From Tomocerus qinae (Eukaryota; Arthropoda; Collembola; Entomobryomorpha; Tomoceridae): DNA of 64,000 nt. The notes under the pieces are model-generated. The model saw nothing but the letters and a program-made list of their open reading frames with translations, did not search any database and was not told where the DNA came from. The DNA is taken from contig CM034548.1 in NCBI GenBank assembly GCA_020055645.1, positions 27,206,201 through 27,270,200 on the forward strand. Reading direction: 5' to 3'. Made by a program: the position numbers and the translations under genes. Of this stretch, positions 5,904 through 55,706 are shown piece after piece. Each line of letters starts with the position of its first letter. Positions within the stretch are counted from its first letter, which is position 1.

Positions 5904-6064
5904 AGGCACGTATCCAAAAATTTCATCAAGGAGGGGGCACAGCAAATAATAATAGGTAATAAAACTTCACATAATTTTTACGATTTTTGGGTCTTTTTAG
6001 GAAAAAAGCTTAGATCACACGCCCTGACCAGGGGAGAAGTTCAAAAAAAGAAAATATGGCTAAA
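5904..6064. mobile_element. Probable transposable-element remnant next to the minisatellite
   Basis: The sequence from 5904 (CAGGCACGTATCCA, then a G-run) resembles the left end of the element at 2873 (CAAGGGCGTATCCAG, then a G-run). I could not find a matching inverted end or target duplication, so the right boundary is unknown. It may extend through the adjacent tandem array. Confidence 0.4.
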
Positions 6065-6241
6065 CACCCCGTGAGAAATTGGTTAAAACCACCCCGTGAG
6101 AAATTGGCTAAAACGACTCCGTGAGAAATTGGCTAAAACCACCCCGTGAGAAATTGGTTAAAACCACCCCGTGAGAAATTGGCTAAAACCACCCCGTGAG
6201 ATATTAGCTAAAACTACCCAGTGAGAAATTGGCTAAAACCA
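6065..6241. repeat. 25-bp tandem repeat (minisatellite), seven copies
   Basis: The motif GTGAGAAATTGG recurs at 6071, 6096, 6121, 6146, 6171, 6196 and 6221, an exact 25-base period. The unit is GTGAGAAATTGGYTAAAACC plus ACCCC, with a few substitutions (for example the copy at 6196 reads GTGAGATATTAG). Copies are contiguous with no spacers. Confidence 0.95.
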
Positions 6242-14738: not shown

Positions 14739-17700
14739 CTGAAAATAAATAAATATTATATCTTCCATAGATATATTCTTCCATTTACAATGAATTAAAA
14801 AAGGTTGTTAGTGTACGTACCTTAAAAATAGCTTGCAGCGTACGTCGCTGGAGATCGGTGAAAACTAAACGGGGCTTTTTGGGTGCTGGAGGATGTTCTG
14901 GTTGTGTCTGTTGCTCTTCCTTCCTCTTGCAAGCTGATTTATATGACATTTATTCAATATTCAGCACAGCCATCACCACCAAAAACAAACAAAATAAATC
15001 ACATTTTTTAGCTTTGAGGTTTATTATACATTTTGAGATTTGCAAAATGTTTACTTATGCATAGAAAAGAGTTGATGACGAAAGTACATGTGAAGAAAAC
15101 CATATAAGACTCATTTTGTGATAGTTTGTGTTGAAGTGAAAGTGCATGTGCTTTTCTATCACGAGCCTCCTATTTGTTACTTGTAATTTAATATGTCATG
15201 TAATTTGACTCCACAATTCCACAGCATGTCTCTAACTGTCTATTATTACTGAATTCCTAGTATTTCCTAACCTTGGCATAGAGTAGTATTCTTCTAAACA
15301 GAAACTAATGTAAACATACACACAACATAGAAACATGGTGAGTGCGGTCAGTGCCATATCAAATAACAGCAATTACTATTATTACTCAACCGCATCTCTG
15401 TTCTTTTACAAAAGAAAGTTTGCAGTTACTGCAATCCTTAAATTGCACATGATTCAAATTATTTCGCAGCTGGAAATAAAAGACTTGGGCATTTATAGAC
15501 ATCTGTGATAGCCACATACACAGATTTGTTAGGTAGTCTACCTGTTACTGATATACAGGATTTTAAAACGATGCATAGATCAACTTGTACGTCTCACTTG
15601 AAAAAGTAGTGATGACATTAGATAAATCGGTAAACAAATACTGCCCTCGTAGTTTATGTAAGTAAATTAGCATTTCCAATATAGTAAAGATAGAGATGAT
15701 TATAGGAGGAATGTTTATATTATGATACAGATCTGAATCAGAGGAAAGCATCTGGGAGACATAACGGAATGCTTCACTTAGATATCTATCATAAAAGACG
15801 ACGCAAGGGAATGAATAGGAAAACGAAATTTAAAGTGAAATGCAATGCAAATGTGAATTGGATGAGAGATATATTTATACAGAGCCCCAACAGATGATGC
15901 AGAGCCAGCAGTCTGTCTGACTGAGACATTTGAAATAACGCTTGATCATTTCGCCAATAACTGAATTGCTCTGCGTACTCCATTGTTCTTGTAGAATAAT
16001 GTCCACTCGAATCTCGTGTACAAACTACAAACTATGGTGAGTGCAGAGATGTTCGTCTCTATGATCCAACTGTCTTCCCAATAGAATAAGAACATCGTAA
16101 AGTATTTACATGTACATCTATCTGCGTACCAACTTTTGCTAGGATTTTCCATAACAGTTTTGCTTTTTCGACAATATTGAATTGCACGTATAGAGAAGCA
16201 TGAAAAATGCACAGTATAGGATATTCTTGTGAGATGTATAATAAAAGCATCGAACGAGAACCCATTAGTCAACTAGGGTATAAAAAATACATCTTCGTCT
16301 TCCGTGCTTGTTTAGACAGTTCCGTATTTTTGTGTGTAGGCCACTACCTCACATTATGCAGAGTAATGCAGAAAGTATTCCAAATTCTTGATATAAACGT
16401 AGGTATATAGCTAACGCGTATTTAAACAGAATTTATAGAGCCAGGTCATAAAATCATAACGAAATATATCAGAGGAAAATAGTAAATGAGTAATATCACT
16501 TGCGATAGAATTCTGAAGCGGTAATACTATAAAATTCTAGAGAGATCGTAAGATTTAGTACTTATGCGAAATGTGTCAATTATAAGAGTATTCAAATAGG
16601 TATGCAATGGCTGAGTAAGAAGAGGAGATTAGAAATGGGAACGCAGTGTTTGTTAATAGCCAGAGTGTACATAGTTACATTATTGTACGGACGAAAGTCA
16701 CATTACCAACAACTCGGAGTGTTTATGTATACTGTACAAATGTTCTGTCATGTCATTCATATGCCATTAGTGTCAACCAGATCGAGTTATTCGACGTTCT
16801 ACTTGCGTTGGCTGAATTGAGCTAAGTGAGTCTAGTTTGGCTTGAGGTACTTGGAAATAACTTAGACGGAGCTACACTGAACTATACAAATCACTTATAT
16901 GAATATACTAGTTGGAGTACATTTAATGCATGTGCCTGTAGATAAGTAGACACGACAACGCTTGGCGATCATAATAAATATAGTAACGAGTGGGTTGTTA
17001 AATTCAGAGTGAAAGTAAACTTTCTCTCATCTCTCCCTTCATTGTGCAAGTCCCCATTTTCCACTATTTCTTGTCTGACTCAATTTCTTTCGATATAATT
17101 GAGAGATAATCTGATTAAGCTGATAAACTCTTTGATCAATGTGAATGTGACTACTCAGTGCTGCTTTGCGGTAGATTTCCTTGAGTTTTCACTTCAGCTC
17201 CAATGTGTACAAACGCTATTGATACGTAATCCATACACATACTACACACATATACTCTAAAATGTACAGTGAACTGAAACGTGGACTACCTATATAAATT
17301 TATGTGTGTACAGATCCAGAATATTAGGCGACTACTATTTGTGCTCAATTATTTGGAGCATTGATCTCAATCAACGTCTAACCGCATAGAACGGTGCTAC
17401 AGTCAAAGTAAACCACACAACAGTACATACAACAGTAAATAGGCCATTCGGACTCAATCCAACTGAAGACTCTGCTCCTCTCCATATCCAATTCCCATTA
17501 TACACTCTACTGCATGGACTCTAATCCTAAAACTCCACCAACAAGAGTCCAATATGTTGCAGACACAACTAAAACAATACATACTATCTAAGCCAGGAGA
17601 AAGTACATGCCTTATTCAAATTAGTATTATATCTTTATATCCCACTCAACTCTGTATGTCTGTAGTACAATATATACTGTCTGTAACCAATCTCAACTGT

Positions 17701-29700: not shown

Positions 29701-32700
29701 AAGTTGGAGTGAGGGCTGACTGATATTTTACTCCATTATACTTTCGAGTTTCAACTTAAATGAATAGGATATACTTCAAATTGTAAGTGGCACAAGAGAG
29801 TATATATACTTGCACATGTGGCCATTAGACGAGTATAAGAGAACCTTCTATTTATTTACTTAGCGGGCTGCATTCAGTCAATAGATTCATAATATTATAT
29901 TCATTCCAATAGAAAGTATTTGCATCTAGGAACTGCTCAGTTTTTATAGACTTGAGAAATTTGCTTTTTTAAGAGTTTTTAATAGTTTTAACTATATCTA
30001 CTTATATAAGTTTATTAATTGATAAATTTCATGTGTTCACGACATTCTTATAATCAAAAATCGAACATTTTCCGTTATAAATACTCATTGCGTTTAATTT
30101 CTGCAGAAATTTATCATGAATTCATCAGAGACAATATAGATATTTTATATTATAATATTTATATAAGTATAGTATAGTTATTCTGCTAGGGAATTTAGTT
30201 GTAATGGTATAAAGGATACAAAAGGCATCACAATTTTTTAGATTTGATAATTCAGATGCGAATTTTTTGTGCTTAGATAGATTTGCGAAAGTATATATTT
30301 GAATATAATATAGAGTAGTACTAAATATAATTCAATGAAAATAAATATTTCTAGCTAGGCGTATTCTTTTCGTGATGCTAAGATTACATATACATATATG
30401 TCGCCATTATAGCTTGCATTAGAGATAAAAGTAGTCCACATATAGGGGTATAAACATATATAAGTAGTTCTGGAGACTATGATAATTCTTAGGGACATAC
30501 TTTGAGGTGATTCCAAAATGCTTTAGCTGAATATGAAATTTTTAGCGAAAGTAGATGAAATTCGTCTGAAAGGTTCTTAGCATGAAGTAAGTACGTATGT
30601 ATGTACGTTAGTTCACTTGACTGCTTTCACTTCTCCAGTCGAATTGTCATCGTTAAGATTACTAAGAGCTGATTTATGTGCTTGATGTATATGTCTAAAT
30701 ACACATGCTTCACGCATATAGCGCCACTTTTATATGTCTATACTATTTTCATATGCCTTTTGTGTACACTCTTTCCATTAAGTAATGTACACCTATGTAC
30801 GTTTACGTTTGCGTAGTCTCATTCCACATTCAAAGGACAATAATTCCTCTGCGAAAACGTATTTTCCGTTTATCTATCATTGCTAGGCATGCTTTCTAGC
30901 TTACAAGGGCATCCATGCTTCCATCCCGTGCGACCATTCAGCACACATTCTATACAATCTTGTCCTCCATGAAGTACAAATTGTGTATTGAGTATAAAAG
31001 TTCATAGTGATAAATACATTTTATAGAATGCTCTACTCTTTCGAATGATACCCAAGGGATTTGCGTAGGATGAGCTTTATTTCGTGATGATCTACTCATA
31101 CGAGGACGTCATGTTTCATCTATCCGTACGAAATGAGAGTAAATGGTGACTTCATTAGAGTAAACTGATGAGAAATGATGGGTTTCTATCATCTTGCTTA
31201 CCATCAGTTCACTTGGTAGCAACAAAAAACTTTTCCCCGCATCAATTTACTACTCGATTCTATTATTATGCATTACCCAGTTAAGTTTTACCATCAGGTA
31301 GGCATTATTGTGTATTTATTACGATTTCATTAAAGTGCAGAGGGGAACATTAAAAGTATACCTCCCTAGATGTAACAAGCATTATTTTATTAGCTTCCTA
31401 CGAGTCCAGTTAATTTGTACGCTCAAAGGGACAACGGAAAGGGTGCAATAATGTACGGGGCATTTTGTTATAATATATTTCCCTGCATACGCGACTGTGA
31501 CTGACTGCTGTGTATGAAAGGTAGTGGCAGCTGATGAGGAAAAGTTAGAAACCGTGTTTGTCCATACATATATCTGTCTGTATAATATAAAGGTGGGTTA
31601 TAATGTAATAATAGAGACATTGCATGTTTCCATTTCCTTTAATTTAATTTGGCTTCGAGTCGAAACTCATGGAAAGTGTTCTCATCGTCTGGCTTTGGCT
31701 CTGAACCGAGTTACTCTTATCCAGGTACTCCTATATAAAATTGGTCCTATATAAATACCTACTGTAATAATGTTGTCTCTCTGCGGTACCTAACCTTACT
31801 ATGCTTGCTATAAGGATAATATATACCTAAGTATGTAAGTACATGCACATTTAGCAATGTCATGTTATTTGTAACATGTCTAGTTCTCCACTTCAGAATT
31901 CAGATCACGACAATGAGCAACTATTATTGTAGTAGATATTACATTTGCAAGTTGATTGAGAATTACATCGTCCGGTCGCTCTATTTATGAACAATATAGA
32001 AGAGTAATAACAATACCTAAAACATTTGTGTCTAGATACACTATTGATGTCGTTCAATCCAATTCAAGCAAAATGTTCACTTGTTCCATGTACTTTTGCC
32101 ACTAGAAACCCCGATGTATGTATAAGTCGACAATAATTACTTAGCACGAGAAGATTAAAGCAAACTCATAACTTACTCTACGATTCCACAATACAGAGAA
32201 AAGGAGAGAAATACTCTACAGAAGAAGTCATGCCATTTAAGACTAAGGCTTTAAGACACCTTTACAGAATTACTTGTACTATAAACTGAATTAGCAATTA
32301 GTTACCTACCTTTTCCCAATAACTGTCATTTAGAAATAAATTTTCAGACTTGAAAATAGAACATTGTAAGCAGTTTAAAGAGGAGTTGGCTAGAGAAAAC
32401 TGAGTAGACGACAGAGAAATACAAGAGATTGACACGAACGACAAATGGAGGAAAGATTTAGTCTAATCCAGAGTAGTCAAGAGTTAGAAACGAGCTAGTT
32501 TAGTCTACTCGCAGCAACGGATACCAAGAATGAGAGAGAAAGAGGATTACCACAAAACAATAGATAGTATTTGTGATAACAGCTTGTAACCTGAGCTACT
32601 AAGTACGTGACTCACTCTACATTCGAATGAATTAGATAGCTGTAGTATATAATTAGGAAGACGAACCCAACAGGTTTTGAATGAAGAGCATTTAGAGACA

Positions 32701-35700
32701 GATAGAAAGTGGAGATTAGTAAAAGATGAGAAATAAACTGTGAAATGACTACTACGAGGGAAAATAGAAAGTAGAGAAAGTGTGACATCTGACAAAGTTG
32801 TACGTAGAAAGTAAAGTAGCATTTAGATAGATTTTCTACGATAGACTATTTACGTAGGTAGATGAATTGTGAGTGATTCATTGAGTCATATTTGAGTCTT
32901 TCTTACCGATGCCGGATAACGTTGCCTCATCACTGCCACAATTGAATCCTAGGTTGACTTGCATACAAGAGGAAGAATGCATGGTCGGCTTACCTGAAAT
33001 AAGATAACATAATCACACGACCCATCACATGTCACTTTCCTTAACAAACCTCTCCAGTACTCTCTCCACCACAAATCTACAATTCTTATACATCCTATTA
33101 TATAATACTCTAGCTACTCAAATCAAATCATTTCTCCGTGTACATATACCATGCCATGCCACTACTCATACCAAATACACTTAGTCAGGTTAGGTCGTAA
33201 GTATACTTACTATTGTTCATACTACTTATCTCTTCGTCCATTCGGGAGAAAGTCATGCCGAGTATTTTTCATTAGCCCATCCATCCATTCAGCTAACTAC
33301 TTAATCAGTAATTAAACCAGTAAAGTAAATATACAAAATTAAGTACCCCTAAATTCCCTCCTACTTAGTATCATATTACATCCTGTACAAAACTTTAATA
33401 ATGCCCCTAAATCTAGGCATATACATATAATATGATGTATAATACCTACCACACACAAAGTAACCCATGGTAAAAGAAATTAAAAGTTTCACATATGAGT
33501 AGCTACTTTCCATACCAGTATACACTTACAAAACAAAATTGGATATAGTAATAAGCAATAATAGCTACATAGCCAGAGCTGAAACGACGCAAAAATAGTT
33601 TAGCGACGGAGTACTCATTTTAACAGAAAATAGGTAGGTAGCTATGCCATACAACGTTATGCTGTTCTGCATAGCTCACTCGTGAAACTCCTCCATCCAA
33701 TTTACACAAAAGCAATTGTCCCTGCACGTAAGCAAGTCAGAAACATTATTTCATGTAACTGGTACATCTAATATATTTATATATCTTGATGTAGAATATA
33801 CTTTGCTCAAGGTAAAACTACAAAAGAAGAAACTGATCAAAATAGACTATTGTTTTGGTTAAGAGGTATGGACTCTTTTGCAAAATTTTAGAATTAAAAG
33901 CTTAGAGTTCACGAAAGGCTACTTATAATTATTTTAAAATGCATAACAGACTATTAGAAATATACTCTTTACCTTTAACATAATTTTTTAAGTGAGCTCT
34001 TCAGGAGGACACATAAGTACATTTACTAGGTACTGTACTACCTGGCCATATTATTATAAATGGCGAAGATAGTTTTACCTAAATTGATGCAGTTAAAGTT
34101 TCAATAATTGATGTAGCACTGCGAATTTGACATTCTTTATAAACACGGAGATAAAAAGTAGGTAACATTTTGGGTGGAAAATGCCTTCAATAAGTTAGAG
34201 TTACCAAGTTTTTTTATTCTCATCGCATTTGCTTTGCATTTTAAGATGGGCCCATATTTAATAAAAAAAAAGTTATCATTGTAAACTATGGGAATTTCTT
34301 TAATGGAAATAATAACTCTTGATAAATGCGAAAAAGTCTTGGAAGAATAAATATGAGAGTGGCTACTTAGTAAATGTTTTCTTATTGTTATTGAATTATA
34401 TGCAGAAGTGCCACGGAGGAGCACGGAGAACATGTCGGGAGTGTAGTAGATGTCTGTCAGAGGCAAAAAGGTTTTCTTACTTTCTTTAGCCTTTTTACAT
34501 AGACAAGATACTAGCAGAGGGAAAAGGATATGAAATACGGGTCTTGTTTGCGCTGCAGGAAAGTGCATTTCAACGTATAAGACTAAACGAGCTCTGGTTG
34601 AATCTAGGATTTTATTCCGCCAGGGAGTTCTGTGCACCAGTTCAATTTCCAAGCTAAGCAAAGCTAAACTAACCACTACAAATCGGAGTCCAAGCCACCT
34701 TATATGAAAATCGTGAGCGGACAAAAGTCCTGATGCTCTTTCTCTTCTACTTAGACATTTTTTGTAGGTACCTTGCTAGTACAGCCTCTATATGGGAGAG
34801 CTTAGCTGTTGAAATTGTTCGGAAAGGTATATAATACATAAAATACCTAATACATCCCCGCCTCAGAAATGTTTGTACATATTATGTAGAACCTTCAGCA
34901 AGACAGAGTGTATGAGCAAGTTCTGTACTATTCTGCGCCGTAAAGCCCGAATTTCCTCAATAGGAAATAACCACTTTGTCTGTGGGAGATCAAATTAAAA
35001 TGTACAGGAAGGAATTTTAAGAAATTTCCACAGGTAAATAGAGAAAATAGAAAAGGAAATGAGACTTTTGGCTGTTTAATGGAGTTATGAGATTACAAAT
35101 GAGAAAATTCTAAGACTTGAGACTTAATTTCATTAAGGATTTAATTAAGGAAATGGTATTTACAGTTTTGAGAAATACTAAATGGGTATATACGGCAGGA
35201 AGGAAAGTATTGTAGTTAGGTTGGATGGGATTTGCCTAACATAACATAGCTAAGTAGAAGGCGAGGTTTTGTAAAGGAGGATATAGTAGAGTTACATAAA
35301 TAGAGAACACAGACACATGCATTGGGCAGAGAGTGTATTAATAATAGTGAGAAAGTTGACTTGTCTGACTGGCTGTGTAAGGGACGAAGAATATTTCTGA
35401 GCACGGACTAAGTAGGAGCAGAGCAGGACAGACGGAGAGAGAATTAAGCGAATGTAGCAGGAGAAGAGAAGGAAATAAATGGGACTATGGAAGCGTGAAT
35501 CAGAGGATCCATGGAAACGAGGGAAAACATTCCTGGTTGCCCCAAAACTCGTGGAAATAAAATAAACCGACTCTTTCTCTCAAACTTGCCATTACAGTTC
35601 ATACATACGTACGCTCCCTGCATTGCTCAGCTTTTCTTTTCTTTGCCTCCTCCAAGTGAGTGACTGAGTGAGCAAAAGAGTGTCTACTCATAATATATTA

Positions 35701-38700
35701 GCACAACGGAATAAAACCGACGAGTATGCAGTACAGACTAAGTAGTTGTGTGGCCAGCGACAGTATGTACTTATCTCGTATGTATAATATGCTGGGTGAG
35801 AGAGACACGCTCATTTGCCAACTCAACTATAATATGTAAACACACTCACTCACTCACTCTCTCACATTATTATATGCACAAAATTCTAACATAACTGAGT
35901 ACACAATAATATTATTTATACAGCTTAAGCATTTATCTAAATCTACCTTCCTACATACTTGCACATAACGTCTGAGAAGATGTCAAAGTGAGACCTTTAG
36001 GTATTAAGTAATAGTTGTGTATAATATTACATACAATTGTGTACATTATTATTATGTACTTACTTAGATATACCTACGACAGCATAGCCAACAGGATCTC
36101 ATCTTTTATGTACAGCGCTCCCGCTATATACTAGTAGTACATACCTACATGTAAGTATATGTATGCAAGTGGATAGGAATACATGGAGCGTACAATGTAG
36201 ACACCACACCACTGTGCTATCTACTATTGATAGGTAAGACCTCCAGTTAGTGCCTGGCCGAGGCCTGTACCACACTTAACGACTATAACGATATAAGTAC
36301 TACAATGTATATGTATGTAAAAGGAGAAGATAGACGGGAGAAAAAGCTCTTATTTATCTTCGACTTTCTCTTACTTTAAGGGCGCAGATAGCTGGCTATT
36401 ATAGACACTGGCAGCCACTCGAATAAATGTATGTATGTATTTACATAGCCTGATATTACATGACATAACATAATAACAGAGTACATAGTCGTGAAACTAA
36501 CGCAACGTGAAAGCTACATCGTAATAGACAGGAACACGAGAAGAAAGGACAGAGAAAGGAGGAGGACGACGACGGACTGCCATATTAATGTACAAAAGCT
36601 TGTCTATCTCGCTATAGAAATATATGCATTCACTCAATGCCTTGCTCTCATTCCCATTTCTGGGGAAATGAACTGAAATAAACGAAGACAAGACAAGACA
36701 CCATGCCCACATACATATAAGTATGCTGCACTTCATCTCATTACTCCTCTGCTCCACATACGCTTCTTTTCCCAAAATATTACAAATGTACGTAGCAGTG
36801 CATTTAATATGAGTCAAACTCAACTTTACTACTTACTAGAACTTTCAAGTTACATTTATGGCGGAAAGGTAAGTAAATCTTATCGTTAGATATGCATATT
36901 ATTTATGTCCCTATATTCTCCCTTGTAGCAAAATGTATTTTGTAAATATATAATTTACGCGTTATACGCTCATATAACTATTGGAGACGTACTTACATAA
37001 TAATGCAAACATATGCAGACCATCTATAAAATCCTGAGGATATAAAGCACTCTATATAAGTAAATAGCAATATAGTACTGGTTTGCAAAGTAAGTGGATA
37101 TAGTGCTATATGCATGGGAAGAGATAGAAAGCGGAGAGAGGCAAGGCCTAGTGAAACAAATGGGAGCTTCCAACAAAACTAACTGCCACTTCACATTCAC
37201 AGACTCCTATTAGATAGCCTTAGCTTGAGCTCAATGCATGTTTGTTAATGCTGCAGGCGGCCTGTACTAGAAACACTACAGAATAAAACATAACAAGATA
37301 TGCTCACTCCAAATACTAAATACATTAGTCAATCAGTCAGAGACTACGTTTTCAACTATAGTCTGTCACCACTACGGGGGAATTCACTAATATTACATAC
37401 ACACCGTCAGACCCTCATTTGCTACCCGTCCTACTAAAATCTAAAATATTCATTCAATTTTAAACCCTTATTTTATTTTTGCAGGCAGGCTTAATTTAAA
37501 AAAAGGAAATAAACCTACTACATAGATAGTTTTTATTTGAAGTATTCACAAGCAAGTGCATGGCAGAGTTAGTATGAGGTAGGGCAGTATTCGGAGATAT
37601 ATGGTGTGTGTACAGTGAAGAGTTAGGAGAGAGAGAGGGCACATGACACAATGCAATGCAATACTCAATGAAATAGTCACACTCAGCACTCACCAACTAT
37701 TGTAAATACTCATGGTTGAGAGGACTAGAAACATGTCTCAAAATTCGTTGCTAATAGTGTGCATGTATGTCCACTTCCACAAAATATGTAATGCGATGTA
37801 CTGCATCACAGTACTACAGTTTGTGCTAGTATGCATTGCATATACATTATAGATACATAGCGTACCTTTCTTGCTGGAAATGCAGAACAGAATATTATGC
37901 TATGTGAGTCTTCCCATCATTCCTCCGCTTTCCCCTATTTTCACCATTCAAATGTCGTCCACTTGTCAACTACTACATGGAGAATGTTTTCTGAAACTAC
38001 TCTTCACTCCAATTCGCAAGAGCGAGTGGAAGTCTCTATCCCTTCTATGAATCTAACCTTTATATATATCCACATTGTAAGTGGCTAATTTATATGGAAG
38101 AACTTCAAGTAGATATGCAAGTGTATACAGCTATCTCTGACTGACTGTATTGTGCAAACATTTTATCCATGTGCTCAACTCAATGCTACAGACAAACATG
38201 GGCTTCTACATAGCAGAAGGGTAAACTTGAGTTTGGGATACAACAGCGAGTTCGTACTTATTCATTAGAATACTCAATCAGTACAGAACGAAGGATATCA
38301 TCGCATTATTAAGTACCTACCTACACACTTTATCATTCTTCATCTTTCTACCCTCCTAAACATTTGATTTGGAAACCTCTCGACATTATCTCCATTATAA
38401 CTAATATAATTGCGTCTATTGCCCACGAGAATAATATCTTTTTCAAATTAGTTAGGAGCTAGTTTAATATTGTTCAGTTAGTATAAAACTCTTGGTAGTT
38501 GTGATTTGAAAAATAAAATTTGGTTAAATCCGTGTTAACACAACTGCTGAGATTGAGATATTACTTGAAGGTCAAATTGACGAATTAATGAGTTTCGTTT
38601 AAAACTATTTATTTATTTTGCAAAGCTCGGAAACTGTTTTGCAATTTTGACTTTGTTTATGCTAACATAGAATGTTAGATTAATGTTGCAGCACAAAAGC

Positions 38701-41700
38701 TAAAAACAAAATTTGTTTTTGCGGAATAAATTGTGGCTTTCATACAAAACAAGTTTTCATGTACAGGAGAAACTACAAATTTGTTTGGCGAGGAGATTAT
38801 TTTGATTAGAGTGAACAGTAATTTAGCATAAAATATTTAACCGCTATATTTACTATTTGATAATGGTCATCGAAGCCGCAGAGTCATTGTAACGGAAAAT
38901 TGTTTTGCAGGGATAAAAAGTTGTTTGCAAGTTAGCAAATGATAAAATGACTTTACGATGATGCACATTAATGCATTAGTATAGAGAATAAAAAGTTTGT
39001 GTGATAAAAAGTGACAAAGTGCATGAAAAAAAGGAGAGAAATGTTTACAAGGGGGATTACTGATGCACTTGTGCAGTAAATGCTTGCATATAGACCTATT
39101 GAATAGTTTAGAGCAGTGGTTCATTTCTATTTTTTGTGTTGGCATAACTGAGTGTGTCTGGCCTTTGAATAATATGTGAAGACAAGTCAGAGGAAATAAG
39201 TAAAGGATGAAGTTGTGGTATGGAAATAATATGGGGGAAGAGAGTTCCCACAAGACAGAGAATAGTCTCTTTAATTAGAGATATTTCTAGCGTTATGGAA
39301 CAATTTCCCAGGCGTCAAACCCCATCTGGGTCTTCCCAGAAACTCAAACAGCCCCGAAATTAAGTTTTTAGTCAGATGTAATTAATCGTCTCCTGGCTTT
39401 CTCTCACTCCAGCCATCAACTTCATCGAATGAATTGTGCCGTTCACTTGTGCACGCCTGTTTTCCGCTGTCCCATTCTAGCATTTTACAGCACGGACCTG
39501 CATCCTAAATAGCACTGTCTTCTGCACTAAGACTTTTCATACACTACTGCAACCAAATACATACTATAAACATATTTATGGATGTACTTTTATATTATTA
39601 TAGGGACCTCTAACCTACAGAACATTCTACGTGGACATTCTTTTAATATTCTTCTCTTCTAGAGAATACAAATCGTATAAATATAGATCAGTTATTATAG
39701 CGTCGTCATGCCCATCTACTATGCATAAGAATAAATAGTAGCACGCAATAGAGAAGGATATAATAAGTGTATTAGGTATATATTAGTGCATTTAGAGCTT
39801 AGCGTGGATTGGGCAGTATGGACCTAGCTAATATTATCGTCGTGGTACTAACTACTAACTAGTGTAACATTACCACAACGACTACAAATACATATCCATA
39901 GAATTCTTTGTTGTGCTGCTGCACCAGTCGGGGTGGCCGTCGTAGTACATGGCAATCTGAAATAACGTTTACTTAACGCTTCTATTCCCTTTGGTTGCCG
40001 ACTCCGTTACATAGAAATAAACAAAGCTTCTCTGCAGAAAGGAAATGAGAGCATAGCGAAACGAAGCGTAAGGAGCTCACATCAACTCTCTTTCTCCGGA
40101 GGAGCTTTCTCCGTGAAAGCTAGTCGTATTTACTAATGGAGCAGAAGGAGAGAAAGTGCCTTCCAAAGGAAAGCAAGCCAAGTCAGAGCCAACCAACGCA
40201 ACAAAGTTAACTGAATCGAAGAGGGACAACTAAATTGAGACTTCATTGCTTTTCCCATAGTAAATTCTACAGGAACTCTTACTTATTACCAAACCAAACC
40301 AACTTCAGTTATTCTAAAAGCGGATCGAGTATTTAGCGACAAACTGCAAACAAGTCATCCACTCTCTCCACTAACGTCCTCACTTTGTTTCACCATCTGC
40401 ACATACACATACATATATACTTTATAGGTAGACAGATATTAGGTAGGTATCTATTTATTACTACCTACACAGGACTATTACTTCTTTCATTTTCCCATAA
40501 TACTCTTCTATCACCCAGATATACAGTGGACGTCATATACATTGACCTATACACTAATATAGGCTAATTTAAACTAACCATTTCTTCAGTGTGAAAATAT
40601 ACGACCAGTGTGGGCTATACCAACTTTGGACTATAATCCACACATTATTTAAATGCAATGCTTAAGACTGCTAAATATATACTCCGTTCACAATGTACGT
40701 AATAACTTATTACGTATATTGTAGACATAAGAGGATGGAATTCAACCAACGGCTAGGTATTTATTACTACTCTTTGCGTCACTAACCGACTAGGTACTTT
40801 ATCTATCTGGATATCGAAAAGCATGAAAGTGCTTTTTATAAACACGTTTATACACCTACTAGGTAATCCGAGTAGGTACCAAAATAGCTATTTATTCATG
40901 GATAGTGTGCGTAGACATTAGTCTATTCTTATATAAATTACTCTAATATCGCCATAGTCCGTTCAGAATTGCTTCAAAACCTGAGATACAGAGCCACAAC
41001 ATTTTATAGTTGAGTAATTAATGAGTGAGTGGGAGCCCCTGCAAAAGGTTCGTAAACTAAACATCTGACTGCAGTGCCTACTCCTAACCTATACAATTTA
41101 TTGGGACAAGGAAAAATAAAATGTAGCCAAGAACAATTTCTTTTCCCTCAGGTTGACCGAATTGAAATTCTACGAGATACACGATACAAACAATTCTTTG
41201 AATCTTTTACATCTAGCTTCCTTCTTAACTCTTAATTCTTTTACTTCTAGCTTCCTTCTTAACTCTTAATTCTTTTACTTCTAGCTTCCTTCTTAACTGT
41301 TAATTATTTTACTTCTAGCTTCCTCCTTAACTGTTAATTCTTTTATCTCTATATTTGAGACGAAAATTGGGAGTAAGATAGAATGATGGATCCCAAGTTC
41401 TTGTGTCTTTGAGACAGTTATTGTTGGGTGCTAACTCGACTTTACCGACCTTAGGGATTTAAAGATCAGTCCAGACTACTACTAGTACTTATTAGCCATT
41501 TCCACTTGTGCTTTGCATTGTATAGAAAATTAATGATGCACTTACAATTCGTGTTAAATTTATCTAATCACATTTTAATACCAATCCCAAAACATTGGAT
41601 TTGAATATTTGATCATTGGGCTTCGATTTATTATTCTTAGGCATGTCAATATGCACTGAATATAATATTCTGTCTGTACGGGTGTCTAATTGGAGCATTT

Positions 41701-44700
41701 TTATATAGCTTGGGTTGTTTTGCATTTGAATAGTTGGAGTACATTTGCATGCAATTTTTTTTGCGGAAGCATTTGTTTTCACAATGTATGCAATTACAAA
41801 GTCGACAGTAGAATTTTGCAAGTGTATTAAATATGTTGTGTGTGTGTGTATTGTTATTTACAGGCAGAGTTGCTGTTCATTTAAAAACGGAAAGAAATCA
41901 ATTTATAACAGTGTGCATACATTCTGTAGTATGTACGTGGCATTCACCTGACAAAATTTGGAAACATCCCATTACTTGAGAGTTGGCAACTGCATACTAA
42001 GCTTTAAAAATCAGCGTAGTAGACTGACAACGTCTATAGTGAGGGCAGGATATTTTTGAGTGAACAATGGAGTGAAACATGGAAGACATCAGTCAGACGA
42101 GACAAAATGAATGTGTTCGCTAACGACAAGAGTCTGAGTCTCGCCTCAGCGTGTCTGTTATTGTGGCACAAGTTTGTCCAATGTATTTCGTATGACGAAG
42201 CCTTGTCTCATTGTTTAAGTAACAAGCCAGCGGGTATGCATACGAACATGAGTATGAGTCAACTGTAATTGCCTGCATATTTTCTCAGAGCAGGAGAAAG
42301 TACTACAAAGGAATTTAATGATGGAATTTTCGAACGAGCTTTGCTTTGAAACTCATATTCCTCCACCATACATGATAAACATAAGCACTGACATATAAGA
42401 TATAAAGCATGTATTTGTTGGTGGTATGCACTCTGTGGTAACTAGCTACACATACAGCATTATTGTAGGGACTAACAAGAGTAGACTAGTAGCAACTTTG
42501 TCGCTATTTAGCAAACTCTAGGGAAGAGTTATCTCATATTATTTGAACAATTTTTGAATGCTGAGCATGCACGCCTTGTGGTTCATCCTGTATCGTATCT
42601 ACAGTTCAGTACGCAAACATGAGATGGTATTTGCAAATATTATTTGAACAATCTATCTGTTTCTACGTACTTTAGTTTGGCATGCTGACAGCATGGAACT
42701 TCTTTTTGTTTGTTTTTAATAAATATTTCAGGTAAAACGTGAGTTGGGTTTATGCTGATGCTATGAAAAAGAAAGAATGCAGAGTGCGCATACCTAAACA
42801 CCATAGCCAAATAAATATGTACATAGCTACCACACAATATGACAATTTAGGACAGACACAAGCGCCTACTACACATTTACCGAGACTATTTATCCCGACA
42901 ATCATCTGGACAAAAGGGATAAATTGCTATTATCACTTGAAAAACAACCGAGATACCTGACAGCCCTCTAATGCTGTCATGCGTAATTTTAAAGAGAACT
43001 TAGTTCATAAATTCATCCATATCCATACCTAGTCGAAACTACTATTTGAAAGTCAATCGCTATGCACGCACTCTTAACCCTACATTCACAAAGTGCCAGT
43101 TTAAAATGAAATTAGACTCCTGACGAAGAACATAGTTTTCGTACATAGTAACTGCCATTAATTGCACTAAATTGCAGTTATACAACTTTATTCGACAACT
43201 ATTAATGCTTAACGGCTAGTGGCTATTAGTTAGTTTCTATTTTGTGCAGTACGAATTGTTTCCCTATTCATAGTGTAGCAACATTACTAATTCAAGATAA
43301 AAGACCTTTCTGTCTTGAGTGACATATATGACATGTACATTCTACACTGTATTTTAGTAATCATCACTTGTAATTTGTAGTACTAGCCTTGTTAGTTAAA
43401 AGAAAATTGACTTTATCTAGTTCTTATGAAAATTGAATTTATTTTACACTGAAACATACTTGAAGACTGTTTTTACTATCTAATGAGCTTATTAGGTGCC
43501 CTATTTTCGATTACAATATCTTACTTCGATAATTTTGAAATGAAAAATTAAATGTCTGACATAATGATCTAGGATCTCTAGGAAATTAGATTTTGCTATT
43601 AATGATATGCTGAAATTACTGTTTTAAGTAGTTCTTAATAGAATAGCGTTTCAGCTTTGGCCTTTAGTACCTTCCTCCAAGTTCCATTAAACTACATACC
43701 GAAATTGGTTCAAGAACTATAATATGTTTTCATGTAATATCATCCATGTAATGTATCAATACTTAAGTAATGTATAATATTTTGATGAAACTGTAGTCAA
43801 ACATGGTAATCAAGTAATGCGATACTCCTTAAAAAGAGTCGTATACCGTTTGATGTGCTTTAAACCTATTGTAATTGTATTAATTACAGTTTGAATAGTT
43901 ATAAATGTATGTTGGGTGTATAAAGTGAGGAAAAGAAGAGACTGTTTGTCTTTAGGTAATGTGTAAATACATAACTAAATAGAGGGTAGGAGAGAGGGAG
44001 TTGTATGGGACGAGACGGAGTGCGAGTGTATTTGGGCGGCGTAAGTAAGTAAGTAAGTAGATGTCTGGAAAAAGGTTGGTACGAGGTGTAAAGGAAAGAA
44101 AGTGAATTAAATGAAAGTAGAATGTAGGAAATGTCGGAGTGAGTGAGGGTAGTTACGTAGCTTATCGTGTGCTCCAAGCTATTGTATCCCATGGCCATGG
44201 TATTTATGAAGTGAGTTAGCAATGCACAGTAAATAGTTAAAGGCTTGAAGGTGTAGTCTGTGTGTACATGGTCTACTCCACTCTCCACATTTCCTCCGTT
44301 CTCATCGTGCATTAGAGATAGTAAAGCAGCCATCCATGAGGGAGAGGATGTGGCGTGTAATGTTCTCTCTATGGTAGTTAGCCTGCAAGAAGCCTGCAAT
44401 AATAGGCCTTTGAGAGAGTACTAGACGGGCCTTCGGTGAATATAGTAGACAGAGGACAGTGATGGAAAGGAAGCCGGGCACCAGGTACGCAGGAGAACCG
44501 AATTCTGTGAGTGCACCGAACAACCCACCCACACCCCGCAGCCCAGCCACAACAAGAGCAAACAAGAGCAACTGCAGCCAAAAGAAAGAGTGAAACAGGA
44601 AGGAAAAGGAACCGGTGCCCAATATTCAGCCCAAATGCTCTATCACTCTGTTCCTCTCACCTTCTCCCTCACCATGTATGTACTTATCATTATACCGAGA

Positions 44701-50700: not shown

Positions 50701-53700
50701 CATCCTTCCCATTACTCAACTCCAAATGCTTCAATTTTAATACAAATCAAAGCAAAACCACACATTTGTTCTACCATTGATGTACTAATATGTAACAGTC
50801 GACTACTACTACTGCATCATATTTACCACGAAAGGAATGCGATATGGTTATAGAGACAACTAACTATAAGGCTTTCACCTCTGAACTAGTTTCTCTGAAC
50901 TGACTGACAAGACGATACACGGGCCGATGTTATAAATACTTTATCTACTACACTATGTACATTATCCTAGTATGTGCTAACGTATTTCAAACCTTAGACA
51001 AACCACTCAAAAATAGTATTTTCCCAAATGGAAGTTTAAGTACATTTCTATTTCCGAGACTTGAATAAAACGAATGATAAAATGGAACAACAAATCACTG
51101 CATCCCTAATAGAAAGTAAATGGGAATGCAGTAGAAATTGGAGATAACAAGATTATTATGTTTCCAACTGATATCGGATGTCTCATAATCTACTTATCCC
51201 CATATAAATGTTAGTGGCCATGTTAAGTTGTCGAGGAGAGTGTACTATGAAATACGATACTAAATACTTGTATTCCAATTTGAAGAATAAGGTTGACAGG
51301 AGGACGAAATGTAAAGAGAGGAGTTGGCTGTGCATATTCTAAGTAAAGCGAAAGAAGACGACGTCTATTGCATAATTATATGCGTTGCACTGAGCCAGAC
51401 AGAGCAAGTGAGACTGGAGTAATGCAATATGTAGGAAGTAAGTGTATATTATGGTATAGTTAAATGGGAGGACTTGAGTGAGTGGCTATATGGACGAGAA
51501 AGTAAATAATAGGCTACTATTATTAGTTGTTGGAATGTCATAAATATAGAAGAGAGCTGTATATTTACAAAGAGTCTAATTGGGGAATAGAGAGCGAACT
51601 GAATGAATGGATGGATTGCACTAGGGACGTAGAAAGGGCAGAAGAGAGAACTGAAGAAAGTAGATCGAAGTAAGTAAGTAACTGACTGTATGTAGTATTT
51701 AGTAAGTATATAATATTATTATATATAATAGAGATAGAGTTGAGCTATATGATAATAACAGTATACTATAGTACACTGGAACTGGATCCTGGAGTGTCGG
51801 AGAGGAGACAGTCTGGACTGGAAGTAGTAAATGTAAATAAGTACGTAGTCGATATAGATAGAGTCGTGTGTATGTTCGAGAGTGTTTACCTGCTAAACGA
51901 AGAGCAGACATCCGCTGAAACTCGGGTTCTTGGAGCCACTTCCACATTCTGCGAAAAGTTTCTCGTCCCGACTTCAGTTTGGACCATGGCTTAGGATTAC
52001 GGAGAAGGTCAGAGAGTGTCCCTTGAGACCTGCACAGAACTCTTTGGGCGAATATTGCTTGTGGTATGCTGTATCGTTTAAGTTCAGCACTGATTCGGGC
52101 TGCCAATTCTTTGGTATTAATTTCTTCCAGCTCCCCAGAGCCAGAAACGGAAGAGCCGCCACTATTTCCTGAGCCTGCAGGTATGGCTGTCAAGTGAGTT
52201 GCCGACTGACTAGATCCGCCGCCACCTGAGGATACCACGGCACTGCCGCTGGCGGCTTTGAGGGCGGCGGAGCTGAGGACGTTGAGGTGGCTGACGGAGC
52301 TGGTGGCTTGATTGACGGCGGCGTGGGTGTGGCTGATGTGAGGGTGATTGTGGGAGTGACTGTGCTGCACTTGTTGCGCGGAGTTCCCCGCCTGGGCGTG
52401 ATGTTGTTGCTGTTGTTGTTGGGAATGTGAGGTGACTATAGGTTGGGAAGAGAGACTGGCTCCGGCGGGGATGGTGGTGGAGACGAGAGGGGAGGAGGAC
52501 ATAACGACAGACATGGGGGAGGAGGTAGGGGGAGAAGAGGCGTCTCGGTGAGTGACGACAACGGCGGTGGCACCCGCGAGAGGAGGCGAGTGGTGGGAAG
52601 AGGAGTGGGGACTCAAGGAACTCATGCCGTTGGGGAGGGAGGTGGTGAGGGAGACTCCAGTGGCGACACCGAAGCTCATGGAATGTGGGGGTGGGGAGGA
52701 GTGGTGGAGGGAACTCCCCGACGGCGGACTGAGAGACGGACTGTGGCTACTACTGTGACTTTGGCTTTGGTTGTGACTGATGCCAGCAAGATTGGAGTGG
52801 CCACCGCCGTGGCTATGAGAGGAAGATGTTTGTTGAGAGGCTCGCAGCTCTCCGTTGGAGGTGACGCCAGAATTCTGCGGCGTGGAGGAGGGGGAGGAGG
52901 TTGGGGTGCTCTGGGCAGCAACGCTATTGCCAGAGTAGGAGTCGTAGCCATTGGGCGAAAGAGCTTTGGGCGGGGAATTCAGACCGTTTTGAGAGTAATG
53001 ATGAGGGGAGATGGATGGGGAGGGTTGGTGGGAGAGGGAGAGGCCGAGCCCGTTGGTTGGTGACGAGTAGTGTGGCGGGGACATCCCCATCGACGGCAAT
53101 TTGTCATAAGAGTACGGGCTATTCACGCCGAGTCCCAGATTTCCCAACCCATTGTTGTGCATGACGGTGAAAGAGCCCGCGACGTTGCCCGCGTGTCCGT
53201 AGGAAAACTTGTCGGACATGGTAGAAATGGGCGGGAGAGGTTGGAGTGGTGTGAGTGTGGCATACTGTGAATTGGAAGTGCCAGGACTGTACCCGGCGGG
53301 AGAAAGTCTTCCGTTGACAGAACTAAGAGCCTGGTAGCCATGCTCAGTCTGAAGGCCACGAAACTCAGAGGCGTCAATCATACTGGCCACAGAGACGGAA
53401 ATCCCGGAGCTGGGCGACAACTTTGGACTGAGAAGCTGAGCCTCTTCGTTCGAGTCGTCCCCTCCCGCAGGCACTATCACTGTCAATGTTGTCTCTCCAT
53501 CTGTGACAGACACAGTCTGAGCTTTGCCACCCTCCTGCGAGTGATGGTGGTGGTGATGATGTCCCGAGGATGAGGAGTGGTGATGACTGTGGTGGTGGGC
53601 GTGATGATGGTGCTGCTGTAGAAAATGGTGAGTGGGATGGTGATGATGGTGTCCGCCACTTGACGAACTCGAAGAAGTATTCTGTCCACTATTATTCTCG

Positions 53701-55676
53701 TTTTGGGAAGAAGAGTGGAGGTGGTGTGAGTGGTGGGGATGGTTCGGCGGAGCGGAGGCTGTAAGTCTGATGGTGGAGGAGGAAGATGGTTCAGGAGAGG
53801 AGGTCACGGATAAATCCTCTGCAGCTGTCTGCAACTCTTCCTTCACCTGGACCCGGTGCAAGGTGATGTGAGCACTTGCATGGTGAATGCTACTCCCTCC
53901 ACTTGAAATGTTATGACTAGCACTATTCGAACTTAATATATTTGTACTGGCAACGGCACTTGCACTCCCTCCGCTACTATTATTATTATTATTACTATTA
54001 TTATTATTACTCCCTCCTCCTGCACTGTTCTGACTATTATTATTATGACTATTACTGTTGTTATTATTATTAGAGTGGAGTTGGAGGGAGTGAGGTCCTT
54101 GTTGTTGTGATGTAGTGTGGTGAGATGCGGAGAGAGCGGAGTGAGATGGATGTGAAGTCACGACGAGCACACGACTGACTGAGGAGCAGGAAGCATTGGC
54201 GAGTGCACTGCCAGTCGGAGCGGAGTGGAGCGAGGAGCTGGATCGGGCCCCTGCCACTGACACCATAGAAAACACTTCTCCGGCCCCAGAGTGGCCGCAA
54301 TGAGTCCCCAATGCACTCAAACTCCCTCCCACAACTGTCGTCCCTCCAACAACAACTCCACTCGCCAACAGTCCGTGACTCGCATGTGAGTGATGATGAT
54401 GATGGTGATGTTGTTGTTGGTGGTGGTGGTGGTGGTGCGGATGCGGACTTTCTTCGGCCTCCTCCTCCACTTCTTCCACCACTTCCTCCGCACCCTCTTC
54501 CATATCGTCAATTTCTTCGTCTTCACCCCCGCCGGGGTGATTTCCATGGTGGTGATGGTGATGGCAATTGTGACCCACAGTCTCGCATTCTCCACCCTCT
54601 TCTTCTTCCACCCCTCCGTGGTGGTGTCCACCATGGTGCGAGTGATGATACTGATGTTGTTGTTGATCGTGGTGTTGTTGTAATTGGTGATGATGGTGTT
54701 GTTGCTGTTGTTGATGGTGGGAGTGATGATGACCATGGTGGGAATGTTGCTGCTGTTGTTGCAGTTGGTGGTGGTGGAAATTATTCGTTGTTCGGATGAT
54801 AGTATGAGTCTCCGACGTGGACGCCTGGATAATTGACGAGTTTTGGGAAATGTGCGACGTAGGGCAGTGGCTGCTCTCCGATAACTCGCACTCGCTCTCC
54901 CCCTCCCCGCCCATCATTTCCGGGTCGGAGGAATCTAGCCCCATTTCTTGCTTGTAGGCTTTGTAGTCTTTGTATTCTTTGAGCACTCTTTCTTCCTCGG
55001 ATTCTGTCACCAAATGATCTCCTGACAGATCTTGTTCTTCTCCCTGATCATCACCTTGTCCGTGCTCCAGTTCTTGCTCCACGACAACCTCCACGCCGCC
55101 AACACCATCTTTGTCACTCTCGTGGTGCAACACTCCGCACAAATCCCCGCCATCCTCCCGCTCTTCATCTGACGTTGGAGAACATTGACTCGCACTGTCG
55201 TACACCGTTACAGTTCGGTGCTGCCGCCTTTCCCGCAATCTCCCACCGGCTGTTGAATACAACTCCGAGCTCAGCTCAGAGTTCAGGTGCTGAGTCAGTT
55301 GCGCTAGCTGCGTGTGGGTGATCGTTTGCGTGTGACCGATGTGAGCTCCGCGAGCTCCGATGACCACCACTCCCGATGTCGCTCCCCCCGCCGTCGGCGA
55401 CGAAGACGTTGTGTACGTCCCCACGGGGTAATTCCCTTTCGCGATGACATTTCTGCCACGACTGTGCCGAGTCTCTGTGTAACTCACTCCACCTGTCTCT
55501 TCACTCAAACTCAACTCCTCACCCTCTTCCAAAACATCTTCGTCGTCCCCTGTGTGGTTCTCGATCTCGATTTCAACACCCACTCCCACCTCCACTATTT
55601 CCACTGCCCCCACAGACTCTGGATTCAATTGATCAGAGTCCAATTGCTCCTCTCCCAGAGTTTCCAATGTTTCCAT
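14403..55676 (-). CDS. onecut: onecut (HNF-6 family) CUT-homeodomain transcription factor, whole gene
   Basis: Predicted coding sequence joins 55676-51890, 14933-14821 and 14738-14403, giving 1411 residues. The joins are phase-consistent (phase 1, then phase 0) and rebuild the conserved linker RLAACKRK between the CUT domain and the homeodomain. Order: acidic N-terminus, three His/Gln-rich tracts and an Asn/Ser tract (residues 300-711), a conserved Onecut block (805-840), one CUT domain (about 1184-1262), a homeodomain (about 1281-1339) and a Ser/Gln-rich tail. Onecut proteins are nuclear DNA-binding regulators, known from flies and vertebrates in neuronal, photoreceptor and endodermal differentiation. 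From memory, fly Onecut has about 1080 residues and vertebrate members about 465-504, so this one is large because of low-complexity expansions. Two further candidate exons lie in the 36.96-kb first intron and are listed separately. Confidence 0.95.
14739..14820 (-). other. Short onecut intron splitting the homeodomain (82 bp)
   Basis: Donor AAG|GTACGT at 14821/14820 and acceptor TTTTCAG|GAAACG at 14739/14738. It interrupts the homeodomain in phase 0 after AIFK, between helix 1 and helix 2. Confidence 0.93.
14821..14933 (-). CDS. onecut: onecut middle exon: linker and first part of homeodomain
   Basis: 113 bases: two bases completing a split Ala codon, then 37 codons starting CKRKEEQQTQ and ending RRTLQAIFK. 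The acceptor is ATAAATCAG and the donor AAG|GTACGT. KKPRLVFTDLQRRTLQAIFK is the Onecut homeodomain start (N-terminal arm and helix 1). The basic CKRK cluster just after the junction belongs to the CUT-homeodomain linker. Phase 1 entry matches the end of the CUT exon at 51890, and equally the end of the 87-bp candidate exon at 32907. Confidence 0.95.
14934..21022 (-). other. 3' part of the long onecut intron
   Basis: AT-rich intron with no supportable exon. It contains many short tracts of the types GTAAGTA, TACCTAC and ATTA but no array or transposon ends I could delimit. A C/T-rich stretch at about 17990-18060 and 18330-18480 is ordinary intron. Short open frames here have no coding character. 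Confidence 0.5.
21023..21028 (-). terminator. Poly(A) signal of the candidate alternative onecut 3' exon
   Basis: AATAAA on the minus strand, 121 bases past the TAG stop. About 10-40 bases further along the minus strand is a GU-rich tract (CAGTGTGTGTGTCTGTTGTC), the expected downstream element for cleavage and polyadenylation. Signal and downstream element together are better than those at the main onecut 3' end. Confidence 0.55.
21149..21471 (-). CDS. Candidate alternative terminal exon of onecut (homeodomain-less isoform)
   Basis: An exon-like island within the AT-rich onecut intron. The acceptor is GTCTCTGATTGCAG|AGTACC at 21472/21471. The exon has two bases, 106 codons and TAG at 21151-21149, so it needs a phase-1 donor, which both the CUT exon and the 87-bp candidate exon have. 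Joined to the CUT exon it starts EYQMQVCSANAP, continues with Ser/Pro-rich sequence including LSPPPYPSYVP (a PPPY WW-binding motif), and ends SNCCSSLL. Codons strongly prefer C or G at the third position, as in the real onecut exon. The product would be 1369 residues with CUT domain but no homeodomain. An alternative donor CTA|GTGAGT overlaps the stop, but using it would shift frame into the homeodomain exon. It could also be the last exon of an unrelated nested gene; I do not recognise the peptide. Confidence 0.5.
21472..32906 (-). other. Middle part of the long onecut intron
   Basis: AT-rich intron. No exon, transposon end, tRNA or tandem array that I can support. Open frames of 60-90 codons on both strands (for example 24626-24886, 32547-32822) look like chance frames in low-GC sequence. 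Confidence 0.5.
32907..32993 (-). CDS. onecut: Candidate cassette / recursive-splice exon of onecut (29-residue linker insert)
   Basis: 87 bases bounded by an acceptor (TTATCTTATTTCAG) and a donor (CATCG|GTAAGA). The length is a multiple of three and it is stop-free in the frame set by the CUT exon. Inserted between CUT and homeodomain exons it would encode GKPTMHSSSCMQVNL followed by GFNCGSDEATLSGI, then rejoin Ala-CKRK. Mammalian HNF-6 beta carries a 26-residue insert at the same place, so a cassette exon here has a precedent. The exon's first bases are GTAAGC, so the site reads CAG|GTAAGC, a combined acceptor and donor as at recursive splice sites. It lies 18.9 kb from the upstream exon and 18.0 kb from the downstream one, close to mid-intron, where such sites tend to lie. 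I infer a real spliced exon; whether it stays in mature mRNA is open. Confidence 0.6.
32994..41203 (-). other. 5' part of the long onecut intron, first section
   Basis: AT-rich intron. A 195-codon open frame at 34137-34724 (minus) has no recognisable domain and no flanking splice signals. A (CACT)n tract lies at about 35842-35865. A more G+C-rich stretch at about 39300-40200 includes an ATTA-containing block near 39370-39480 and an exon-like block at 39905-39956 described under findings; it may be regulatory. Confidence 0.45.
41204..41346. repeat. 34-bp tandem repeat, four copies
   Basis: CTTTTAC with the following TCTAGCTTCCT recurs at 41204, 41238, 41272 and 41306, an exact 34-base period, with a partial fifth unit from 41340. 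Copies differ by a few substitutions (CTCTTAATT versus CTGTTAATT). It is inside the onecut intron and is pyrimidine-rich on the plus strand. Confidence 0.93.
41347..51889 (-). other. 5' part of the long onecut intron, second section
   Basis: Mostly AT-rich intron. Simple repeats include (GTAA)n at 44041-44058 and a GA-rich tract at 48391-48421. A G+C-enriched island at about 44160-44660 contains a strong pyrimidine tract and acceptor on the minus strand (TCTTTCTTTTGGCTGCAG, exon side from 44571), but neither following frame resembles a known protein. Nothing else here supports a gene. Confidence 0.45.
51890..55676 (-). CDS. onecut: onecut first coding exon: low-complexity regions and CUT domain
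   Basis: Starts at ATG 55676 (peptide METLETLGEEQLDSDQ); an in-frame TGA lies 13 bases upstream at 55691-55689, so no earlier ATG in this exon can extend it. It has 1262 codons plus one base, ending GTTTAGCAG|GTAAAC (phase 1). Residues 1-70 are acidic. Residues 301-360 and 412-432 are His/Gln runs, about 534-567 is Asn/Ser-rich (AAT repeats in the DNA), and about 672-711 is His-rich. Residues 805-820 (YATLTPLQPLPPISTM), followed by SDKF and AGNVAGSF, match a block conserved in vertebrate Onecut proteins. The CUT domain is about 1184-1262; LSDLL at 1221-1225 corresponds to the HNF-6 motif reported to contact CBP. The exon is much richer in G+C than its surroundings. Confidence 0.96.
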
Positions 55677-55706
55677 CACAGCCAATTTTCATTCTTCTAA
55701 GGGCAT
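55633..55706 (-). promoter_or_regulatory. Upstream open reading frames at the onecut start
   Basis: Two short frames precede the onecut ATG. One runs from ATG at 55706 for five codons (MPLEE) to TGA at 55689. The next ATG, at 55692, overlaps that stop, has A at -3, and opens a 19-codon frame ending at 55633, which overlaps the onecut start in another frame. The onecut ATG has G at -3 and +4. If the 5' UTR includes these bases, ribosome access to the main start should be restrained. Confidence 0.45.

Follow-up and report, generated by a model that had tools for sequence, protein, structure and literature searches.

Until the seven reporter tests of Joseph et al., Ubx was, by their statement, the only Drosophila case in which recursive splicing of expressed recursive-splice exons (RS-exons) had been validated (PMC8605326). 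The Ubx exons m1 and m2 are short, in-frame exons of 51 nt each, two in the ~73-kb intron of a homeobox gene, and a donor is regenerated at the 5' end of the exon, where it competes with the exon's own donor; their recursive splicing was validated, and all 51 nt of m1 are conserved across Drosophilids (PMC8605326). Drosophila has more than 500 intronic ratchet points and fewer than 50 expressed RS-exons (PMC8605326). Zero-nucleotide ratchet points combine an AG/GT junction (a slash marks the splice point throughout), a pyrimidine tract and GTAAG (PMC6110457, PMC2773006) and lie in the middle of very long introns (PMC6110457); they almost never occur with expressed exons, and cryptic RS-exons measure about 50 nt and as a rule break the reading frame (PMC8605326). 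A rebuilt donor likewise competes with the exon donor in the cryptic RS-exons of long neuronal genes of vertebrates (PMC8911335). For the layout of the coding sequence, the closest system is rat HNF6 (Onecut1), with one exon for the N-terminus and CUT domain, one for 26 beta-specific residues, and one for the homeodomain and C-terminus, lying more than 10 kb apart (PMC11800625). The small HNF6-beta exon, between the CUT and homeodomain exons, lengthens the interdomain stretch, and the available part of PMC11800625 mentions no recursive role for it.

In introns >50 kb, ratchet-point (RP) sites outnumber those of the complementary strand 21.7-fold in fruit fly, 4.0-fold in bee and 8.0-fold in beetle; the enrichment is much greater than ten in mosquito, with none on the complementary strand, 8.2-fold in sea urchin and 0.9 to 1.5 in vertebrates (PMC2773006). 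High-confidence recursive sites are present in 63% of fly introns >40 kb, and where there is a single site it tends to be closer to the intron midpoint than chance would place it (PMC6110457). These base rates refer to introns >40 or >50 kb; the Onecut intron described below, with its 37 kb, falls somewhat short of either class, and the insect figures bear on it only as the intron of an arthropod.

On the minus strand of the window (the whole 64-kb stretch of Tomocerus qinae DNA that was analysed), we found an ONECUT gene that consists of a long low-complexity CUT exon, an intron of 36,956 nt and homeodomain exons (Table 1). We scanned 178 residues of the conceptually spliced product, with the low-complexity N-terminal region outside the scan. 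They contain a CUT domain in one stretch (PF02376, E 1.5e-34) and a homeodomain (PF00046, E 3.6e-12), and they match HNF-6 (2d5v, E 6.7e-85) and ONECUT2 (8t0f, E 3.5e-82). The alignment with HNF-6 supports the junctions of the constitutive exons. The ONECUT class has Met at homeodomain position 50 (PMC4901127), and the homeodomain stretch VGNFFMNARRRS is that of 2d5v except G for S, with a Met that, judged by eye, would lie at the expected place. Judged by its sequence, the gene is of the ONECUT class, with one CUT domain followed by a homeodomain.

The 3' end of exon 1 reads TTAGCAG at 51890, in phase 1, followed by GTAAAC, and the intron between CUT and homeodomain (51889 to 14934, phase 1) falls between LRLA and ACKRKE. 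The two constitutive donors of the gene score 2.86 and 5.92 with our position weight matrices (PWM), which are approximations of insect splice sites and were not trained on Tomocerus qinae. Exon 1 is open over more than 1200 codons with dense His, Gln and Ser runs that lead into the CUT domain. The exon 2 acceptor (14934-14948, minus strand) has a poor pyrimidine tract, yet closes the 37-kb intron.

Table 1. Features of the ONECUT gene and of the mid-intron block, in window coordinates
Feature	Position	Strand	Evidence
Exon 1, open part: long His/Gln/Ser-rich region and whole CUT domain	51890..55685	-	ORF, PF02376, HNF-6/ONECUT2 structures
Exon 1 original donor GTAAAC, weak, PWM 2.86 as CAG/GTAAAC	51884..51889	-	
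G-rich stretch upstream of block, sense GC skew +0.25 to +0.73 in four 100-nt bins	32994..33393	-	
Acceptor tract ATTATGTTATCTTATTTCAG	32994..33013	-	
Putative ratchet-point junction TTTCAG/GTAAGC	32988..32999	-	
Candidate RS-exon (block), 87 nt, in frame, open; 29 residues between CUT and homeodomain	32907..32993	-	
Donor of candidate RS-exon, TCG/GTAAGA, PWM 3.33, below rebuilt donor	32901..32906	-	
Mostly pyrimidine-rich stretch downstream of block, purine 0.26 to 0.44 per 100-nt bin	32394..32906	-	
Exon 2, remaining linker and start of homeodomain; weak acceptor, PWM 0.0	14821..14933	-	
Exon 3, remaining homeodomain and C-terminus, through stop codon	14403..14738	-	

The original prediction had described an 87-nt block in the middle of this intron, with an acceptor, a donor and no stop in the frame of the flanking exons, whose first bases would recreate a strong donor on exon 1. 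We found each of these elements on the minus strand. The acceptor is TTATTTCAG/GTAAGC and the donor CATCG/GTAAGA, and the block itself is directly followed by GTAAGAAAG. Going upstream from the acceptor, the next AG comes after 43 nt. Six branch-point-like NTNAY matches lie in the last 60 nt before the block, including A at about 33013, 33025 and 33032, and the interval between that AG and the acceptor holds such matches. Joining the block to exon 1 rebuilds a donor, CAG/GTAAGC, with a score of 7.20 vs 2.86 for the original one, and the block's own donor is inside the range of the two constitutive donors. The block starts at 51.1% of the intron length and leaves segments of 18,896 and 17,973 nt on either side. 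Translated in phase 1, as exon 1 dictates (GCA G/..), the block encodes GKPTMHSSSCMQVNLGFNCGSDEATLSGI with no stop, and both other frames have stops; the 29 residues would be inserted as SALRLA^GKPT...SGI^ACKRKEE. The weak points of these signals are that the exon donor lacks an AG before GT and that the rebuilt donor has C, not T, at +6.

Set beside the known systems, the block would be, as Ubx m1 and m2 are, a short in-frame exon in a very long homeobox-gene intron with a donor regenerated at its 5' end that would compete with its own, but it would be a single 87-nt exon, in a CUT-class gene. Like zero-nucleotide ratchet points, it has acceptor and donor motifs juxtaposed around AG/GT, with a pyrimidine tract and GTAAG, in the middle of a long intron; as in expressed RS-exons, there is a downstream donor that could define the exon, and the frame is preserved and open. 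Vertebrate cryptic RS-exons mostly carry stops. In contrast, inclusion of the block would give neither a stop codon nor a frame shift. In architecture the block corresponds to the HNF6-beta exon (29 residues vs 26 codons), being a small candidate exon that keeps the frame and separates the CUT exon from those of the homeodomain.

GCATG occurs three times at 33150-33258 on the minus strand, the copies beginning between 161 and 265 nt ahead of the block, and three such motifs are found in 0.78% of the intron's 300-nt windows. Since GCATG forms the core of the Rbfox site, a neuronal splicing factor could act at these sites.

We found that the junction at the block is the best in the intron. It ranks first of the 119 sense AGGT sites and above all 93 antisense sites, and with its normalised log score of 0.822 (next best 0.739 and 0.755) no other junction of the window reaches 0.8. 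Its summed score is 11.03 vs 7.16 for the next among the 10 intron sense sites with both halves positive. The threshold of PMC2773006 is 80%, and with our matrices the site passes on the log scale (0.82) and narrowly fails on the frequency-sum scale (0.78), should the latter be the scale of that paper. The sequence CAGGTAAG occurs once on the two strands of the window together, at the block junction, and AGGTAAG occurs six times, three per strand, with one other copy (27636) on the sense strand of the intron. For TTNCAGGTAAG there is one occurrence vs a shuffle mean of 0.18, with at least one in 16 of 100 shuffles. CAGGTRAG is rarer in the window than in its shuffles (1 vs a mean of 2.69), so that overall the window shows no enrichment of this motif.

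Dinucleotide-preserving shuffles of the intron gave a junction with a summed score at least that of the block in 141 of 1000 cases, and one in which both halves each match in 27 of 1000. Hence, the junction by itself is weak evidence. A plain in-frame cassette of the block's splice quality appeared in 338 of 500 shuffles (1.18 expected per shuffled intron), and one equal to the block in both splice scores and codon usage in 40 of 500. The compound of a junction with at least the block's summed score, an in-frame open exon of 24-150 nt and a donor as good was found in 0 of 1000, and the antisense strand of the intron holds no junction or in-frame cassette equal to the block's. The features of the block are mildly unusual or weakly above chance singly and stronger jointly, all having been chosen for testing after the finding was seen. 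One in-frame cassette candidate elsewhere (15732-15598, minus strand, 135 nt) outscores the block at its splice sites (5.01 and 3.52) but has poor codon usage (-0.735 per codon vs +0.084 for the block).

Codon usage was scored as log-odds trained on the gene's own exons vs the intron, a test limited by the low complexity of the training exons, and gave +2.4 in the predicted frame of the block and -18.8 and -14.6 in the other two. A value of +2.4 or more is reached in 5.5% of the stop-free 87-nt intron windows, which number 13,011 of 73,734 on both strands. The GC content of the block is 0.48, and 2.8% of intron 87-mers are as high.

The sequence also changes from purine to pyrimidine at the block. 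At each of the five scales tried, a peak of this step less than or equal to 75 nt from the start of the exon ranks first or second in the intron, and its size on both measures is matched at 4 of the 2142 AGs of the sense strand and 2 of the 2352 of the antisense strand. The pyrimidine-rich side resembles the sequence after the exon 1 donor: by skew and purine content in 300-nt windows, the sequence downstream of exon 1 is in the lowest 2% and that downstream of the block at ~6%. By eye, the per-kb table shows no kilobase-scale skew ramp along the intron halves; the effect is local. Of the constitutive intron ends, the exon 1 donor has the composition signature and the exon 2 acceptor does not, and the intron contains further switches about as large, running either way. 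Hence, the composition switch is support, not proof, for the block.

A repeat or transposon origin was rejected, since the 493-nt neighbourhood of the block has no other match in the window at E <=1 except one of 18 nt. The 29-residue peptide likewise has no second copy; the best other tblastn match has E 0.41, with 35.7% over 28 residues at 36145-36228. A CUT query against genome and viral contigs and a homeodomain query against genome contigs gave no relative; as these collections are bacterial, archaeal and viral, the outcome has no bearing on conservation. RNA families were absent at gathering scores, and no tRNA was found. Among 5 of the 11 listed long ORFs (four intronic, one outside), none had a Pfam match at E <=0.1. 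One of 149 aa (21149-21598, minus strand), without a Pfam match, lies in a GC-rich intron patch (0.436 per kb bin) and adjoins a purine-to-pyrimidine switch near 21394-21477, and in-frame candidate exons end there in CTA/gtgagt at 21150; it is possibly another exon or a small gene. Another of 166 aa (43899-44399, minus strand), also without a Pfam match, lies near the GC-rich kilobase 44001-45000 (0.436) and a switch at ~44610. Tandem arrays have a 34-bp unit (x4.2) at 41203-41345, inside the intron, and a 25-bp unit (x7.7) at 6052-6242.

With moderate confidence, we take as the best explanation that the block is a recursive-splice exon of the ONECUT gene with regulated inclusion; that the site acts as a ratchet point at all, whether its exon is expressed or cryptic, is probable. 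From the observed sequence elements, frame, donor scores and position, we infer two splice events, a donor competition and an effect on DNA binding. The mechanism is modelled on the fly scheme (PMC8605326). The rebuilt donor outranks the exon's own (7.20 vs 3.33). In step 1, the weak exon 1 donor GTAAAC would be spliced to the acceptor at 32994 and the first 18.9 kb would be removed, the block being recognised because its own donor at 32906 would define it as an exon. In step 2, the rebuilt strong donor CAG/GTAAGC would compete with the block's weaker TCG/GTAAGA. If the rebuilt donor wins, as would be the expected default, the block would leave with the remaining 18.0 kb to give the short-linker form LRLA-ACKRKE; if the block's own donor wins, the 29 residues would be kept at the CUT end of the linker, and this long-linker form may have altered DNA binding.

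In the expressed Drosophila RS-exon reporters, the rebuilt donor was stronger than the exon donor in 7 of 7, and Ubx m1 and msi were mostly included despite their weaker exon donors (PMC8605326); hence, skipping need not dominate. The linker of ONECUT2 showed no electron density, and the intact protein, which binds at 7 nM, was suggested to depend for this on covalent linkage of its two domains (PMC11490551); therefore, a longer linker could change binding.

That the block is a chance pseudoexon, with motifs that coincide in a long AT-rich intron which is removed whole or through unrecognised sites, is unlikely, though to be taken seriously. Cassettes and junctions of its quality are common in shuffles when taken singly, the search space is large and the features were picked after the fact; against this, no shuffle reproduced the joint compound, codon usage and the composition switch agree, and no antisense junction or in-frame cassette in the intron is as good. 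We also doubt, and slightly more so, that the site is a zero-nucleotide ratchet point whose cryptic exon is recognised but always removed, with an open frame by accident. The numbers in Drosophila, where ratchet points far exceed expressed RS-exons (PMC8605326), would favour such a site, as would a rebuilt donor much stronger than the block's own. However, at 87 nt the block is longer than the generally out-of-frame cryptic RS-exons of about 50 nt (PMC8605326), and it is in frame, open as a minority of intron windows are, and codon-like in that very frame.

The rat HNF6 three-exon layout (PMC11800625) resembles the architecture here, and the block could be read as an ordinary cassette exon that yields a long-linker isoform in the manner of HNF6-beta, with its leading GTAAG accidental and unused as a donor. 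This is improbable: the five bases with which the block opens, GTAAG, turn the end of exon 1 into a near-consensus donor, and CAGGTAAG is found nowhere else on either strand of the window. Least probable is an alternative first exon, with transcription starting just upstream and an in-frame ATG at codon 5 (ACC ATG C) giving a homeodomain protein that lacks the CUT domain. In its favour, the frame is closed by an in-frame stop that lies 22 nt before the block; against it, the good acceptor directly before the block would be unneeded, and tight binding by ONECUT2 is suggested to require a covalent link between CUT domain and homeodomain (PMC11490551). The original prediction had left open a linker exon, a recursive site or both; the dual reading, in which the block would be both, appears to fit the anatomy best, and codon usage, composition and the mid-intron position favour it, so that the proposal as a whole is partly supported.

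The original prediction had further held that an arthropod counterpart of the HNF-6 alpha/beta choice built on a recursive site would be new. This was too strong, since the two 51-nt expressed RS-exons of Ubx, a homeobox gene, already are alternative in-frame exons and recursive sites at once (PMC8605326). Both halves of the proposal have direct precedents, Ubx m1/m2 for the mechanism and rat HNF6-beta for the architecture. ONECUT together with recursive splicing was not found in the open-licence literature among the matches listed, including those of broader queries; the new part would be the combination of an alternative in-frame exon and a recursive site in ONECUT.

More speculatively, and with little confidence, the ONECUT alpha/beta linker choice may be old in animals, with the beta exon descending from a ratchet point or doubling here as one, such that a single AG/GTAAG junction would both divide the intron and set linker length by donor competition, tying DNA-binding mode to intron removal. 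If the recursive-splice exon is real, ONECUT would be a second homeobox class in which an RS-exon serves as a coding switch. Donor competition would then provide a simple molecular handle on the length of the CUT-homeodomain linker, and whether the vertebrate HNF6-beta exon also begins as a ratchet point could be tested directly.
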